The notes under the pieces were generated by a model. That model was not told the origin of the DNA, searched no databases, and saw only the letters and a program-made list of their open reading frames with translations. Positions 7,243-14,969 of a stretch of 27,676 nucleotides of DNA are shown here, one piece after another. Source of the stretch: a virus; the IMG/VR virus record IMGVR_UViG_3300032294_000652, positions 1-27,676 of that record. One strand, given 5' to 3'. Every line of letters starts with the position of its first letter. The stretch's first letter is position 1. A program made the translations under genes and the position numbers.

Positions 7243-7665
7243 TTAGCTTAGCTTTAGCAGCTGTCCTTTGGCTATAGACACCTCGACAAAGCGCTCGTTC
7301 TTTGTGTAGATAGTGTCTTTGGTAATGATAGGGCTTGAGGCGAATGTAGGGCCGTCGATGACCACAGCGTAGGTCCAGTCATCGTTGAGCATGATGAAGT
7401 TTACGTTGGCTGGGTTCTTGGCGAACTTTAGCTTGCGGGCAGCGAAGTGAATGGTTGGGTACGGGAACTTAGGTCCCTTCCAGTTGTGCTTCACCTCAAC
7501 CTCTAACTCAAATGTACCTCGCTCGTTCTCAACGATTAGGTCTATGCCGTACTGATCTGGGTTGACGTAAACAATCCACCCGTAGCGCACGGTGAAGAAC
7601 GTGATGACGAACTCTTTGGCAGCGTCGTCACGCTCGTATAGCTCCCTAGAGAATGGCTTATTCAC
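7243..7665 (-). CDS. PD-(D/E)XK-type nuclease candidate
   Basis: 140 residues. YGIDLIVE (D42) followed by FELEVEVKHNW (E57, K59) gives the D...ExK triad of the restriction-endonuclease fold, and a FPYPTIHFAARK segment and FIMLNDDW strand follow as in phage proteins of this kind. It may be a Holliday-junction or branched-DNA nuclease or an accessory DNA-cleaving enzyme. The ATG at 7665 overlaps the stop of the replication initiator gene by 8 nt. The assignment is by motif only. Confidence 0.6.
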   Translation of the reverse strand: MNKPFSRELYERDDAAKEFVITFFTVRYGWIVYVNPDQYGIDLIVENERGTFELEVEVKHNWKGPKFPYPTIHFAARKLKFAKNPANVNFIMLNDDWTYAVVIDGPTFASSPIITKDTIYTKNERFVEVSIAKGQLLKLS

Positions 7666-8431
7666 TCAGCCTCTTTGCACACGGTACACACCTAGCAATA
7701 GTCAGGCCGTGCTCACAGAGCGAGGGACCAGATGACTGCTCTTCTGCCTTGCGTTGTTCTTCTAGGAATCGTCTGGACTCTTCACGCTCTCGCTCCTTGC
7801 GAATGCGAGCTCTCTCGGCTGCTTCGGAATCGGCAGATGGTGCTACCTCGTTTTCCCATGAGTCATTGTTCAACCATGTCGCCGGATACTTTGTGAAGTC
7901 GGGGTTGCGCTGAGGATCGTTGCGGTAGGCAATCACCCCAGCCAAGATGTCTTCGAACTTCCCACGTTTCATTGCAGACTTGAAAGCTCTGAATGCTTTG
8001 GCCTTGTCTAGCTTCTTTGGGTAGGCATTCCAGAACTCGTCAAAATGCGCATCAAGTTCTTTAGATTGGTCTTCTTTAGTAATAGTATTCTTATGTGGCG
8101 GATTATCCGATGGCGGAAAACCCGACGACGGTAAATCCGCAGGGTCATGCGTAGTCCACACTGCTTCCCCGAAACGCCCGTGATCATTGGCCTGTGAGCG
8201 TGACAGGTATCCAAGCTGCTCCAGTTCTGCGATCGCAGATCGAATCGCATCCTTGCCTTCTGCGTTTTGTACTGCAAGACCAGAAATGCTAAGTCTCCAA
8301 CCCTGGGAATGACTCATCAACAACGCAAGCAAACCCCTCGCTTTGAACGATAACCGGGAGTCCCTTAGCCAAGCATTTGGGATCTGAGCGAACTGCTCGT
8401 CAAAACTGTGATGTCCTCTAATCAGTGGCAT
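7658..8431 (-). CDS. Replication initiator or helicase-loader-like HTH protein
   Basis: 257 residues. The first ~90 form a winged-helix domain: FAQIPNAWLRDSRLSFKARG, then LLALLMSHSQGWRLSI and GKDAIRSAIAELEQLGYL. This arrangement is typical of phage replication initiators or DnaD-like replisome organisers. The middle (DEFWNAYPKKLDKAKAFRAF to KYPATWLNN) is a conserved element in such proteins. A charged helix (EREREESRRFLEEQRKAEE) and a C-terminal C-H-C-C zinc cluster follow. It starts at ATG 8431, TAATG-coupled to the methyltransferase gene. Confidence 0.75.
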   Translation of the reverse strand: MPLIRGHHSFDEQFAQIPNAWLRDSRLSFKARGLLALLMSHSQGWRLSISGLAVQNAEGKDAIRSAIAELEQLGYLSRSQANDHGRFGEAVWTTHDPADLPSSGFPPSDNPPHKNTITKEDQSKELDAHFDEFWNAYPKKLDKAKAFRAFKSAMKRGKFEDILAGVIAYRNDPQRNPDFTKYPATWLNNDSWENEVAPSADSEAAERARIRKEREREESRRFLEEQRKAEEQSSGPSLCEHGLTIARCVPCAKRLSE

Positions 8432-9075
8432 TAGAAATCAACCTTCTCTAGCAAGATACGCAAGGCAAGCTCAGCCTGTTGTGGCACTACACCGTTCCCA
8501 CATGCCTTCAGTTCGTCTGTACGGCTCAATCCGACGTCTGTGACCCATCCATCAGGCAAACCCATCATCCACTCTGTAAAGGCGCTAGAGAGCCTGTGAG
8601 CCCCGTCCTTGCCATCTGGCTTTGTAGGCAGCGGTGCAGGACGCCCTAGGGTTTCCTCCCAGCGTCGGATAGCTGGCTCGAACTTGCCCCACTCAATCTC
8701 ATCAGTAAGCTCCCCAAGGCTGTCGTTATCAACCACTCGGCTGACCTTGTGCCCGTTTAGGCGAGCAATGTCCATGGCGTTGTCACGGATGCCTACGGTG
8801 TTACCACGCTTGCGGGCTTCTTCCTCTCCTAGTGCGCCACCTTCACCTTGACTGGCTGTTGGGGAACGCAATAATGAAGATTCGGAAACGCTGGTGTGGT
8901 GCTCCGGCGTCGGAAGCTCGTAAACCAGTCCATTTCGCATCGTACCCGAGATCTGCCAAGTCCCCAAGAACGGCTCCCAGTGCTCGAAGAGGAGCCCGTC
9001 CGTCGAGAGCTGCCAAATCTTCTTCTGAGTATTCCATTCCATTTGAGGCTGTTGCGCTGAGTAGTCCTCTGACAT
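8431..9075 (-). CDS. C5-cytosine methyltransferase, C-terminal subunit (motifs IX-X)
   Basis: 214 residues from ATG 9075 (TTG 9081 is an alternative with GGTGG upstream). The N-terminal ~75 residues include LLFEHWEPFLGTW, SGTMRNGLVYELP and SESSLL, a text I recall from the segment that follows the catalytic part in actinobacterial C5 methyltransferases. The C-terminus, IRRWEETLGRPAP, FTEWMMGLPDGWVTD and ELKACGNGVVPQQA, holds the late motifs that complete the AdoMet pocket. It lacks motifs I-VIII, which lie in the neighbouring gene, and shares 233 nt with it in the +1 frame. It is probably the second subunit of a split enzyme, as known for M.AquI. Confidence 0.7.
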   Translation of the reverse strand: MSEDYSAQQPQMEWNTQKKIWQLSTDGLLFEHWEPFLGTWQISGTMRNGLVYELPTPEHHTSVSESSLLRSPTASQGEGGALGEEEARKRGNTVGIRDNAMDIARLNGHKVSRVVDNDSLGELTDEIEWGKFEPAIRRWEETLGRPAPLPTKPDGKDGAHRLSSAFTEWMMGLPDGWVTDVGLSRTDELKACGNGVVPQQAELALRILLEKVDF

Positions 9076-9409
9076 TTTCAATTACCACCAATCTAGGTTT
9101 TAGTTCTTCGATAGCTCTAGCGAACTCTGACCAGAGTCCTGAGCGTGTTCCGTCCTGTAGTCCCGCACGTTTTCCGGCGAGTGATAGGTCTTGGCAGGGA
9201 AACCCACCAGTAAGGATGTCGACTGGCTCTACCTGAGTAAAGTCCACCTTTGATACGTCCTTGTAGTTGGGTACACCTGGGAAGTGCTTGTCCAGAATTG
9301 TGGACGGAGCGTCTTCCCACTCACAGTGCCATGCTACTTCTGCACCAGTTACATTCATTACGGCTAGGTCGAGACCGCCGTAGCCAGAGAAGAGGCTACC
9401 GACTTTCAC
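8843..9409 (-). CDS. C5-cytosine methyltransferase, catalytic N-terminal part
   Basis: 188 residues from GTG 9409 (the frame is open to 9469). LFSGYGGLD (motif I, AdoMet), GGFPCQDLS with Cys72 (motif IV), ENVRG (motif VI) and GAPHQRFRIFI (motif VIII) are intact. It stops after AFPNSQSR, before the target-recognition region and motifs IX-X, which lie in the next gene. The enzyme would methylate C in a short DNA sequence, most likely to protect phage DNA from restriction. GTG 9409 matches the usual start just before GSLFSG; it overlaps the upstream gene by 14 nt. Confidence 0.8.
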   Translation of the reverse strand: MKVGSLFSGYGGLDLAVMNVTGAEVAWHCEWEDAPSTILDKHFPGVPNYKDVSKVDFTQVEPVDILTGGFPCQDLSLAGKRAGLQDGTRSGLWSEFARAIEELKPRLVVIENVRGLLSATASNGMEYSEEDLAALDGRAPLRALGAVLGDLADLGYDAKWTGLRASDAGAPHQRFRIFIIAFPNSQSR

Positions 9410-9647
9410 GGGCTTCGTACTCTCGCATGCGGATAAAAGATTCACGGGCCGACTGATCCCTAGCTCCACCCACCCAGCGTCCTGCGTTGAAGTAAAGCTT
9501 CTTCATGTCTTCTAGTCTTTGGCGTTTCTTCTGACGCTCTTGATTGACTACGGCAAAGCTTCTCAAGGAAGTTTCGTCCAGTGACTCGTCCCCTTCAATC
9601 AGCAATGCCCTGTCTCGCATTTCTTTTGCGAGTAGGTTGATTTCCAT
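9396..9647 (-). CDS. Hypothetical helical protein, 83 aa
   Basis: 83 residues starting MEINLLAKEMRDRALLI. It is charged and mostly helical, with a basic centre (RQKKRQRLEDMKK). The ATG at 9647 follows TAGGAGAGA, a strong ribosome site. Its last codons overlap the methyltransferase start by 14 nt. No family is recognised. It may be a structural or DNA-associated small protein. Confidence 0.65.
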   Translation of the reverse strand: MEINLLAKEMRDRALLIEGDESLDETSLRSFAVVNQERQKKRQRLEDMKKLYFNAGRWVGGARDQSARESFIRMREYEARESR

Positions 9648-9655
9648 TCTCTCTC

Positions 9656-10000
9656 CTAAATTAGATAGCTCGGCGGCTCGGTCACCCCTTTACCGCCTTT
9701 GTTGTCTAATTCATACCAGAGTGAATCAACGATGTCAAACACCGGACTGGAAAAATCATCCCAAGAGCCAAGTTTGTGTCCATAGTCACGTGCCTGGCGA
9801 GCCGTAGCAGCGTCTGACTCCATCATGCCGTTGTACTCAGCGCAGACGAGCATCAGGTTGTCGAAGCGGTCAAGTAGCTTTGAGCCACCCATCGCACGGT
9901 TACGGCGGTGATGTGGAACCAGCGTGTCGCTTGACCCGCAGTGAGCGCAGTGAAAGTCACGCAGTCGTAGCGTGTTGATCATCTTGTTAGTGACGGCCAT
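9656..10000 (-). CDS. HNH endonuclease-like protein
   Basis: 114 residues. FHCAHCGSSDTLVPHHRRNR (CxxC, then HH), AMGGSKLLDRFDNLMLVC and N follow the HNH layout seen in phage endonucleases. The second zinc pair is altered: CAEYN where CxxCN is expected, so zinc binding may be weaker or a different residue takes part. The C-terminal half has aromatic and acidic helices. TAATG couples it to the upstream coiled-coil gene. It may be a homing-type nuclease or a recombination accessory. Confidence 0.75.
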   Translation of the reverse strand: MAVTNKMINTLRLRDFHCAHCGSSDTLVPHHRRNRAMGGSKLLDRFDNLMLVCAEYNGMMESDAATARQARDYGHKLGSWDDFSSPVFDIVDSLWYELDNKGGKGVTEPPSYLI

Positions 10001-10985: not shown

Positions 10986-11185
10986 TCTTCTTCCTCTTCC
11001 TCAAAGGACTCCTCGTCCTCGTCTACTATCTTCCATCCCGACGTGAGATAGAAGCTTGTGTCAAGCGCATCTAGAAAGATGCGTTCAATCTGTCCGTGTG
11101 CGTCTAGAACAATCCCACGGGTCTTGCCCGTAATGTACGTGCCGTCCTTGACAAGCGTGATGCGGTCACCCAAAAACAGTTGCAT
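10982..11185 (-). CDS. SH3-like small protein with acidic tail
   Basis: 67 residues starting MQLFLGDRITLVKDG. I chose ATG 11185 because AAGGGAATGTA precedes it and it overlaps the exonuclease stop as TAATG. The body is a set of short strands (GDRITLV, GKTRGIVLD, WKIVD) typical of SH3-like barrels in phage proteins next to exonucleases. The C-terminus EESFEEEEEE is strongly acidic and may mimic DNA or attract partners. The function is unknown. Confidence 0.65.
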   Translation of the reverse strand: MQLFLGDRITLVKDGTYITGKTRGIVLDAHGQIERIFLDALDTSFYLTSGWKIVDEDEESFEEEEEE

Positions 11186-12075
11186 TACATTCCCTTCTTG
11201 TTGACGATAAGAGAGGGGGTTCCGCCTCGTATCTGACGTGATGCTACTCGCAAAGTCTTGCACTGGTCAAGTTCGATGTATCCAGTCTTGGCGTAGCCCA
11301 TCATGTCAAGCACCTGTGACTTGTATTCAGTCAGCTTGTAGTAGGCAGCGTCGGCAATCTTTTGCGCTGCAATCATGTCAATACCTAGCTGACCGAGGTC
11401 AACCTCACGATCCTCAATCAACGGGTGCATCGAGCGAACTGCCTGATAGGTCGACTCACTGCCGTCCCAAGCTGGCCTCTCGTCTGTGGTCAGCGAGTTC
11501 CAGAACTGCAACGCCTTGTCACGCTGTACGGCCTGCATAAACTCATCCGCCTCGATGTAGTCTTCGTAGGGCTCCATGCCGACTAGACCGACTAGGTAAG
11601 CCTTCTGAATACCCATGACATCCATGTAGTGCTGCACCTGAGCTACGTAGTGCACTGGGGTTGAGTCCCAGGTGTAGCGAGCAGTCTTAGCCTCGATGAC
11701 GAACCACTCACCAGTCTCACGGTGCTTAGCTAGTGCATCGGGGTTAGCGTGTAGGAAAGTCATTTCCTTTGATGCGTATGTGCCAGCCCTAAACAGTTCA
11801 AGCTCAGGGTGATTCATAGCGAACATCTTTAGGATTGGCTCTTCAAGAAGGTTGCCGATCATCGTGGCCGTGTTGCCCTTGAAAGTGTTTTCTATCTTTC
11901 CGGTGCGCTTGGCCCAAAGAGCGTATGCAGACTCCCAAGGATTGAGCCCTAGGATTGTGCCTATCTCGCTACCACCGACCCCGTGTGACCGAACCTCGTG
12001 CCATTCAGGGCTATCTGAGTCAAACTCTCCGATAAATTCTGCACAAGGGAATTCTGACGATTTTGCTAGTTCCAT
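11185..12075 (-). CDS. YqaJ-type exonuclease
   Basis: 296 residues from ATG 12075, preceded by GAGGAGACAAC. The YqaJ/lambda-exonuclease fold is clear: GVGGSEIGTILGLNP (residues 32-45), GNLLEEP, ANPDAL (D113), FVIEAKTA (E128, K130) and VHYVAQVQHYMD (Gln residues). It should degrade one strand of duplex DNA ends to feed the annealing protein. It is the first gene of the leftward replication block and lies 50 bp from the divergent whiB gene. A longer frame to 12150 has no ribosome site and would overlap that gene. Confidence 0.9.
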   Translation of the reverse strand: MELAKSSEFPCAEFIGEFDSDSPEWHEVRSHGVGGSEIGTILGLNPWESAYALWAKRTGKIENTFKGNTATMIGNLLEEPILKMFAMNHPELELFRAGTYASKEMTFLHANPDALAKHRETGEWFVIEAKTARYTWDSTPVHYVAQVQHYMDVMGIQKAYLVGLVGMEPYEDYIEADEFMQAVQRDKALQFWNSLTTDERPAWDGSESTYQAVRSMHPLIEDREVDLGQLGIDMIAAQKIADAAYYKLTEYKSQVLDMMGYAKTGYIELDQCKTLRVASRQIRGGTPSLIVNKKGM

Positions 12076-12076
12076 G

Positions 12077-12105
12077 TTGTCTCCTCTACTAATTGCGAAT
12101 AGGCT
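12077..12105 (+). promoter_or_regulatory. Candidate promoter of the first whiB gene
   Basis: TTGTCT at 12077-12082 and TAGGCT at 12100-12105 are separated by 17 bp, and the TAnnnT -10 form is common in actinobacteria. The predicted start point lies at about 12112, near the GGAGG ribosome site, so the 5' leader would be very short. Inferred from the motif only. Confidence 0.45.
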
Positions 12106-12124
12106 ACAACGGAGGTAGGACATT

Positions 12125-12379
12125 TTGCGAATTAGCGAGAAAAAATACATCGCTCTTCAGTCAGCGATTATCAAAGTGGGCGGCGTCGTCTGCGAGAAAT
12201 ACCCTGAAGCGTTCTATCCGGAAGACTATGGCGTTGCTATTGAGGCAATCAGAGAATTAGAGTCAATCGCCGTGCGTATTTGCATCGCCTGCCCAGTCCA
12301 GAAGCTTTGCCTGGATTACGCAATCACTGCCGAGGAGCCCTACGGGATCTGGGGCGGAACACTGCCGTCTGACAGGTAA
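12125..12379 (+). CDS. whiB: WhiB-family iron-sulfur regulator (first)
   Basis: 84 residues from TTG 12125, with GGAGG nine bases upstream. The four cluster ligands are C23, C53, C56 and C62 (CIACPVQKLC), followed by the GIWGG turn at 74-78. It lacks the long basic C-terminus of typical WhiB proteins. WhiB proteins bind a [4Fe-4S] cluster and the host sigma factor; phage copies such as WhiB of TM4 block host WhiB2 and can interfere with division and superinfection. It is one of only two rightward genes here. Confidence 0.9.
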   Translation: MRISEKKYIALQSAIIKVGGVVCEKYPEAFYPEDYGVAIEAIRELESIAVRICIACPVQKLCLDYAITAEEPYGIWGGTLPSDR

Positions 12380-13857: not shown

Positions 13858-14748
13858 CTATGAGTTTGCTATGAGGTCTTTTTTGTCACTTAGGTCGATA
13901 CCTGTGACCTTTTGATACTGTTCAAAGAGGTAAGTCGACCCGATGCCGTAGATGCCCAAGCTAGTGTCGCCAGTCATAATCTGCGCTAGGCGCTCGTAGG
14001 ACTTCTTGTTTAGCTCGCCCCACTCGTTGTGATCTTCCCAGTGCAGTCGACGCTTTGAGTTAGGTCGGTTGAAGTTAGTAAACATAAACTTGACCGTAGG
14101 GCTGATTAGCCGCATGCCACGGGTATAAGCCCGCAGACCGAGTGATGGCTCTTCTCCGGTGAAGTAAAGCTCACGGTCGTATGGAATCTCAGCCATTAGC
14201 TTCGTCTCGGCAAACATGCAATTAGCTGACATGAAGAACTGCTCGTCCCCATGCTCAGTGTCCTTGACGTTCTCCCAGGCTCCCATGACCATACGTGACT
14301 CACCATGCCAGTGCGCTCGTAGCTTGTAGAGCGTGTCGTTGGCGTGTAGGACGGCCTCACCTGACTCACCTAACTCGAATGCGTCCGGATAGTTAGTAAA
14401 CCAAATACGGTTGCCCCAGAACTCCTGAGCTTTTTTGTAGGCCGTTATGAGCATCTCGTCCCAGCCAGGCACGAACCGAGAATGCGAGTCAATTTGCAGG
14501 AAGTAGTCACCGACTAAGTCACGGGTGGCAATCTCTCTGGCCCAGCATGCTCCCAGCGATTCTGTCCAGTGCGCCTTCTGATAGCGCAGCTGATCTACGA
14601 AGCTCAGGTCAGGATGCTCATGCTCTTCGGCTTGTGAGAATACCGAAAAGAAAATGTCGGCAGGGTTGGTTGCATTCTCGTATGCACTGCGAACCGTGTT
14701 GACTAAGTCAGGGTCACGGTAAGAGGCAATGCTTAGGAAGATCACCAT
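13858..14748 (-). CDS. Glycosyltransferase of the GlcNAc-type family
   Basis: 296 residues from ATG 14748, overlapping the previous stop (ATGGTGA). FLSIASYRDPDL near the N-terminus, SLGACWAREIA and GDYFLQIDSHSRFVPGWDEM (the DxD-like metal site within QIDSHS) match PF11397-type glycosyltransferases, which move a sugar from a nucleotide donor. HGDEQFFMSANCMFAE and a later FTGEEPSLGLRAYTRG segment belong to the same family. It may decorate phage tail proteins or alter host glycans. The frame is open further upstream, but there the protein lacks family similarity. Confidence 0.8.
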   Translation of the reverse strand: MVIFLSIASYRDPDLVNTVRSAYENATNPADIFFSVFSQAEEHEHPDLSFVDQLRYQKAHWTESLGACWAREIATRDLVGDYFLQIDSHSRFVPGWDEMLITAYKKAQEFWGNRIWFTNYPDAFELGESGEAVLHANDTLYKLRAHWHGESRMVMGAWENVKDTEHGDEQFFMSANCMFAETKLMAEIPYDRELYFTGEEPSLGLRAYTRGMRLISPTVKFMFTNFNRPNSKRRLHWEDHNEWGELNKKSYERLAQIMTGDTSLGIYGIGSTYLFEQYQKVTGIDLSDKKDLIANS

Positions 14749-14969
14749 TTGTGCAACGGGCAGCTGGCGGCTTTGAGCTTGGTCTTGAGATTCATAAAGC
14801 AACCGCACTCACGGCATTGCTGCACGTTCTTAGTGAACCTGTCACAACCCTTGCAGATGTCTAGGCGAGCAGTGGCTTCTTCTTCAGTCGCATACTCAGT
14901 GTTTGGGTTTAGCACATCCCAAGGTCTTGTGGCTCCGAGTTTCTTCTTATACTCGCTCCACGCTGACAT
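14742..14969 (-). CDS. Small zinc protein, DUF6171-like
   Basis: 75 residues. RLDICKGCDRFT, then QCRECGCFMNLKTKLKAASC and PLHKW match the small Cys-rich family that often accompanies phage glycosyltransferases; Cys residues pair as CxxC, CxxCxC and a final C, enough for one or two metals. Its stop overlaps the start of the glycosyltransferase gene, so the two are translated together, which suggests they act in one process. Family name from memory. Confidence 0.75.
   Translation of the reverse strand: MSAWSEYKKKLGATRPWDVLNPNTEYATEEEATARLDICKGCDRFTKNVQQCRECGCFMNLKTKLKAASCPLHKW

Follow-up and report, generated by a model that had tools for sequence, protein, structure and literature searches.

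A locus on the minus strand of the window, by which we mean the whole 27,676-nucleotide stretch of viral DNA analysed here (IMG/VR virus record IMGVR_UViG_3300032294_000652), very probably encodes one C5-cytosine methyltransferase that is made as two separately translated polypeptides from overlapping genes. We have no expression, complex or methylation data for it. The two genes, here called alpha and beta, and the signals associated with them are as follows:

8843..9409, minus strand: alpha, the C5 cytosine methyltransferase catalytic subunit with motifs I-VIII, 188 aa, likely GTG start
8431..9075, minus strand: beta, the subunit with a target-recognition-like region and motifs IX/X, 214 aa, ATG at 9075-9073
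8843..9075, minus strand: two-frame overlap of 233 nt, from the beta ATG to the alpha stop; beta codon position 1 is alpha codon position 2
9085..9089, minus strand: Shine-Dalgarno-like GGTGG, 9 nt 5' of the beta ATG, within alpha codons L127-V129
9073..9075, minus strand: beta ATG start, formed by alpha N132 (AAT) and V133 (GTC)
8431..8433, minus strand: beta stop TAA, which forms TAATG with the overlapping ATG of the following gene (7658-8431)

The longest open reading frame for alpha begins with a GTG at 9469 and ends at 8843, and we placed its likely start at the GTG at 9409 because relatives open with [MV]K[IV]GSLFSGYGG. The motifs required for membership of the C5 family (PF00145), namely I, IV (PCQ), VI (ENV) and VIII (QRxR), are all present in order, as FSGYGG, GFPCQD, VIENVRG and APHQRFRIFI, and the stop (8845-8843) lies no more than 10 residues past motif VIII. 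When profiles were searched, alpha matched PF00145 (Pfam; 1.8e-38) over positions 2-165 of 324 only, that is, over the N-terminal half, together with dcm TIGR00675 (NCBIfam) and PHROG 363 and 116 (E 6e-67 and 1e-58, respectively). Its likeness to M.HhaI was seen both as a sequence match and in the predicted fold (Foldseek E 7e-14); the model has a disordered segment (residues 137-160) in the part of the overlap between motifs VI and VIII, which is also the least conserved part of alpha.

Motifs IX and X, which the C5 fold also needs, were found, but in beta, as FTEWMMGLPDGW and GNGVVPQQA. The beta text includes FLGTWQISGTMRNGLVYELPTPE, the IX-like EWMMGLPDGW and the X-like CGNGVVPQQA before its stop at 8433-8431, and its invariant residues are G44, G49, FxEWxMG, GW and GNGV. 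The profile phrog_1008 aligned with beta nearly end to end (residues 9-212, 2.6e-55), while phrog_116 was matched in series, by alpha at 204-376 and by beta at 409-491. Resemblance of beta to a canonical C5 enzyme was limited to a weak profile alignment at motifs IX-X (E 0.013). Pfam, NCBIfam and PDB sequence searches with beta returned no match, and Foldseek against the PDB gave nothing significant, the best hit being to the motif IX-X end of DRM/DNMT3 (E at least 0.4). The recognition region was modelled with low confidence; in relatives it is an array of LPTPxAxD units. At three loci (L171 2001-3371, L161 777-2801 and L193 1995-3356) we observed LLPTPxAxDxxGG... units of about 25-40 aa in varying number. 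Either frame can encode such units, and the beta text of single-chain phages gives way at its end to the alpha frame, which continues with DLLPTP.

A reading made from the DNA alone, without database searches (the sequence-only reading), had reported a 233-nt overlap at 8843-9075 with beta in the +1 frame, which proved exact to the base. It had also assigned catalytic motifs I, IV, VI and VIII to one frame and a recognition-like region with motifs IX-X to the +1 frame, and both readings are indeed present. When alpha was shuffled synonymously, keeping the same protein and the same codons within the gene, the beta frame stayed open in 657 of 20,000 shuffles (3.3%), so an open beta frame in the window, taken by itself, is no more than mildly unusual. 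Matched to a profile derived from other phages, however, the window beta text reached 77.5 bits, whereas none of 3,000 shuffles exceeded 53.1.

Relatives were collected by protein scans with alpha and beta, which gave about 160 viral-contig loci and, once cultured phages had been added and duplicates removed, 145 usable loci. The genes are split as in the window in 112 of these, in 29 one alpha frame continues through motif X, and 4 are unclear; motifs IX and X both lie in beta in the window and in 104 of the 145. Overlapping pairs annotated as 'DNA methylase' occur in Mycobacterium, Arthrobacter and Paenibacillus phages, and annotated methyltransferase pairs include Catdawg gp6/gp5 (209-nt overlap) as well as Phanphagia gp65/66 and Leona gp41/42 (251-nt overlap each). 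Outside phages, a genome_contigs scan found at least two chromosomal loci, both overlapping, and a plasmid search gave four weak matches. The sequence-only reading had called an overlap of this length unusual, a description that does not survive comparison with the family, in which overlap is the rule and is much longer in many non-actinobacterial phages. Two departures from the common layout were observed: an additional break of the alpha reading frame, between motifs IV and VI, at L061/L198 and L165 (Poenanya gp73/74), and two alpha copies, each with beta-overlap text in the +1 frame, at L178 and L180 (Tweety-like locus), 661-1209 and 2001-2549.

Across these relatives, alpha codons 139-201 are free of beta-frame stops in all 112 split and all 29 single-chain loci, whereas codon shuffling would give about two in each split sequence. 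Over codons 151-202 of 107 split alphas there were 0 beta-frame stops, compared with 2.15 per sequence in synonymous shuffles; in the third frame, stops were near the level of the same shuffles. Beta-frame identity between loci at codons 171-190 was 0.545, as against 0.316 after shuffling. In alpha, the share of comparisons in which four-fold silent sites differed was 0.65 upstream but 0.38-0.41 over codons 151-190, and third-position differences dropped, from roughly 0.5, to 0.23-0.41 across the overlap. Those silent changes that the overlap does contain favour conservative substitutions in beta only slightly over expectation (mean BLOSUM62 -1.36 versus -1.50), so the constraint is one of rarity of change and stop avoidance, not of conservative substitution. 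A true overlapping pair is expected to show silent-site constraint in the first frame, and stop avoidance with a conserved start in the second, all of which were met here; the proposal that the shared region is genuinely protein-coding in both frames is borne out to this extent by silent-site constraint and beta-frame stop avoidance. The case for a real overlap, resting on comparison across relatives, is overwhelming.

Two beta start sites occur in the family, both within the alpha codons for ENVRGLLSA. One is the ATG of the window, and the alternative is a GTG formed from S138 (AGT) and A139, behind AGG-GGN at R134-G135 (AGGGG); the window lacks this GTG (S138 is AGC) and is of the ATG type with GGTGG. 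A beta-frame stop is found at codons 133-137 in 62 split loci, and all 62 have the start at codon 138. The 38 loci with the upstream (132) start only are all open from codon 132, and 3 further open loci have neither start. Codon usage at these positions departs from background: AAT is found at N132 in 93 of 112 split loci (background 0.37), AGR at R134 in 99 of 111 (background 0.42) and AGT at S138 in 67 of 105 (background 0.127), and in GC-rich single-chain phages the codons that make the Shine-Dalgarno sequence and the start were used in 19 of 23 (versus 0.095) and 19 of 24 (versus 0.078). GGTGG is present in 27 of 38 ATG-only loci and in 0 of 59 loci that need the downstream GTG, and AGG at R134 in 51 of 59 GTG-type loci versus 1 of 38 of the ATG type. 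These counts treat related loci as independent, so that independence is overstated and the p-values are nominal. As judged from such codon counts, the beta start and its predicted ribosome-binding site are under selection, with the choice of start complementary to upstream stops. At the other end of the gene, the TAATG junction suggests that beta is translationally coupled to the next gene. Taken together, these comparisons establish, at the level of sequence evolution, that both frames exist, that both are constrained, and that the beta start and ribosome-binding site have been selected.

The same two-frame coding was found in forms that differ from the window. Since the beta-overlap of 16 diverse phages held no stretch conserved enough for a profile scan, single sequences served as queries, and matches to beta-overlap text, mainly from a scan with a Microcystis-phage segment, led to 92 loci, the majority of them retrieved through beta text only. 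An alpha lies in the overlapping frame under all 92. The sequence-only reading would have been refuted by relatives carrying the two segments in series at non-overlapping positions, or by a frame free of constraint; no examined relative has the former arrangement, and both frames are constrained. Within the 92-locus set, 63 unique alphas are full length and enclose a nested beta frame. There, beta-frame stops number 75 at codons 1-45 (76 expected), 0 at codons 61-225 (about 205 expected) and 80 beyond codon 226 (70 expected), and silent-site differences fall from roughly 0.65, reaching 0.18-0.29 over codons 106-135 and 0.13 over codons 211-225. This nested set (L213-L294) has a motif-IX-like MGFPxGW in beta and motif X in alpha, and a full-length alpha contains nearly all of beta in many contigs of non-actinobacterial phages. 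In the case of the single-chain mycobacteriophages, IX and X are both in alpha, and the +1 frame still holds long recognition-like text with a selected start. Motif placement across lineages thus takes three forms: both in beta; IX in beta and X in alpha; and both in alpha.

Some of these second readings have been annotated and others have not. The nested gene of Paenibacillus phage Gryphonian is annotated as a second cytosine methyltransferase. The gene phiBT1 gp9.1 (L300 1186-2290) carries the annotation 'DNA methylase may be inactive', and its +1 frame holds a complete beta in a window-like split, with recognition units, EWLMGLDPGW and GNGVVPHQA. The T4-like C5 gene of Citrobacter phage Maroon has a closed +1 frame, and therefore the dual frame is not a property of all C5 genes. 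Long open +1 frames of 135 and 165 codons were also observed in the C5 genes of a Streptococcus phage (L295 889-2382) and a Lactococcus phage (L298 901-2124), respectively; frames as long arose in 0.2% and none of 500 shuffles, and their text is different (WGTMQNG...LSDIL). Whether the C5 genes of a large proportion of tailed phages hold a conserved out-of-frame gene for a specificity subunit, with IX and X having moved between frames, is a proposal for which we judge the chances evenly balanced; it would give the methylases listed as single genes in mycobacteriophages such as Tweety and Geralt, and also phiBT1 gp9.1, an unannotated second protein, which may add specificities through frame-swappable LPTP units.

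Conserved +1 text could in principle be a shadow, in which the alpha protein and codon bias mimic a second reading while beta really starts downstream, near the alpha stop. Such a shadow would be compatible with the finding that beta-overlap text is never seen without alpha underneath (92/92), with its appearance in GC-rich single-chain relatives and with the unremarkable openness of the window on its own. Synonymous shuffles, however, destroy the beta text, in identity as well as in freedom from stops, the start and Shine-Dalgarno codons are selected and complementary to upstream stops, and the Maroon gene has its +1 frame closed; on the shuffles and the start-site data we rejected this explanation, to which we give very little weight. 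The idea that an indel from assembly or sequencing has broken what is normally one gene is supported by nothing beyond the split itself. It was rejected as scarcely conceivable, because the split is conserved in many contigs and isolates: an identical architecture recurs in about 100 contigs and in sequenced isolates, and the conserved texts of both frames share one stretch of DNA, an arrangement that no single indel could produce. The sequence-only reading had likewise argued against a frameshift artefact.

If a programmed frameshift near the alpha stop joined alpha and beta into one protein, the C-terminal motifs of beta would complete alpha in series, and single-chain relatives do exist. 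Yet a fusion of this kind needs no beta reading upstream of the shift, and this upstream portion is under strong constraint and comes with a conserved start and Shine-Dalgarno sequence of its own; in addition, many relatives have in-frame stops upstream of the beta start and none after it. We disfavour a fusion on account of this constrained upstream reading and think it quite unlikely, although no systematic search for slippery sites near the alpha stop was made. It might also be that the translated beta protein does not serve as the specificity half and is instead an independent or regulatory protein overprinted on alpha. Many phage alphas have motif X, and those of single-chain mycobacteriophages both IX and X, so that beta is not obviously needed for catalysis there. 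Set against this, alpha alone is incomplete in the window and in the 104 loci where IX and X sit in beta, and the two proteins match adjacent parts of one profile, which leaves an independent beta improbable, if not to be dismissed out of hand.

Under the preferred reading, that of one enzyme from two overlapping genes, alpha would provide AdoMet binding and catalysis through motifs I-VIII, and beta, starting within the alpha motif VI codons in the +1 frame, would contribute motifs IX-X, which complete the enzyme, as well as target recognition. Together they would form an active heterodimeric enzyme, as in M.AquI, and translation of beta from within the alpha mRNA would tie the amounts of both subunits to each other. 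Its role would probably be protection from host restriction. That both proteins are made and bind each other, that beta sets the target and that methylation protects phage DNA from host restriction are all inferences. Elsewhere on the minus strand of the window, a 140-aa open reading frame at 7243-7665 (ELEVEVKHNW) looks PD-(D/E)XK-nuclease-like by eye, has no Pfam match and could be a nuclease partner of the methylase; a reading frame at 9656-10000 looks HNH-like by eye, also without a Pfam match, and a YqaJ recombinase (11185-12150) and a GlcNAc glycosyltransferase domain (13858-14808) were observed as well.

It is likely that the annotation of many phage methyltransferases covers only half of the protein, and that their specificity and activity are misjudged as a result; phiBT1 gp9.1, marked as possibly inactive with its whole second half in the +1 frame, is an example. 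The family also offers a large natural set for the study of dual-frame coding, in which the recognition half is written over the catalytic half and the frame of the motifs differs by lineage. It is, moreover, a source of naturally split C5 methyltransferases, enzymes of a type used in targeted methylation tools.

Two-polypeptide C5 methyltransferases are already known, and in one of them, M.EcoHK31I, the beta gene lies in another frame within alpha, a feature shared by the window and its relatives in that beta overlaps alpha in another frame. Catdawg gp6/gp5 and similar pairs have the same two-frame arrangement as the window and are annotated as two genes, so that some annotators already list both; in the Tweety and ShiLan papers, the related gene figures as a single methylase. 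PHROG 363/116 (alpha) and 1008 (beta) collect such proteins as 'DNA methyltransferase' and are silent both on overlap and on two-frame coding. We found no account in the open-licence literature of the dual-frame conservation, its breadth or the hidden beta in 'single' mycobacteriophage methylases; the kind of enzyme is known, and it is its breadth, conservation and hidden presence that seem unreported there. In M.AquI, alpha carries motifs I-VIII and beta the distal variable region with IX-X (PMC3404938). The comparison with M.AquI drawn by the sequence-only reading holds for this partition, which the window shares, and for nothing else; in the window the overlap runs to 233 nt, both frames are under constraint and beta extends as far back as motif VI. 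M.EcoHK31I (YGGCCR) needs two polypeptides, with motifs I-VIII and X and a predicted TRD in alpha and motif IX in beta (PMC3404938). The window, with motif X in beta, is not of this type, and the TRD-like text of the phages is likewise in beta, not in alpha; the nested phage set, with X in alpha and an IX-like motif in beta, does share the partition of M.EcoHK31I, which of the two-polypeptide enzymes known from experiment is the nearer precedent for nesting.
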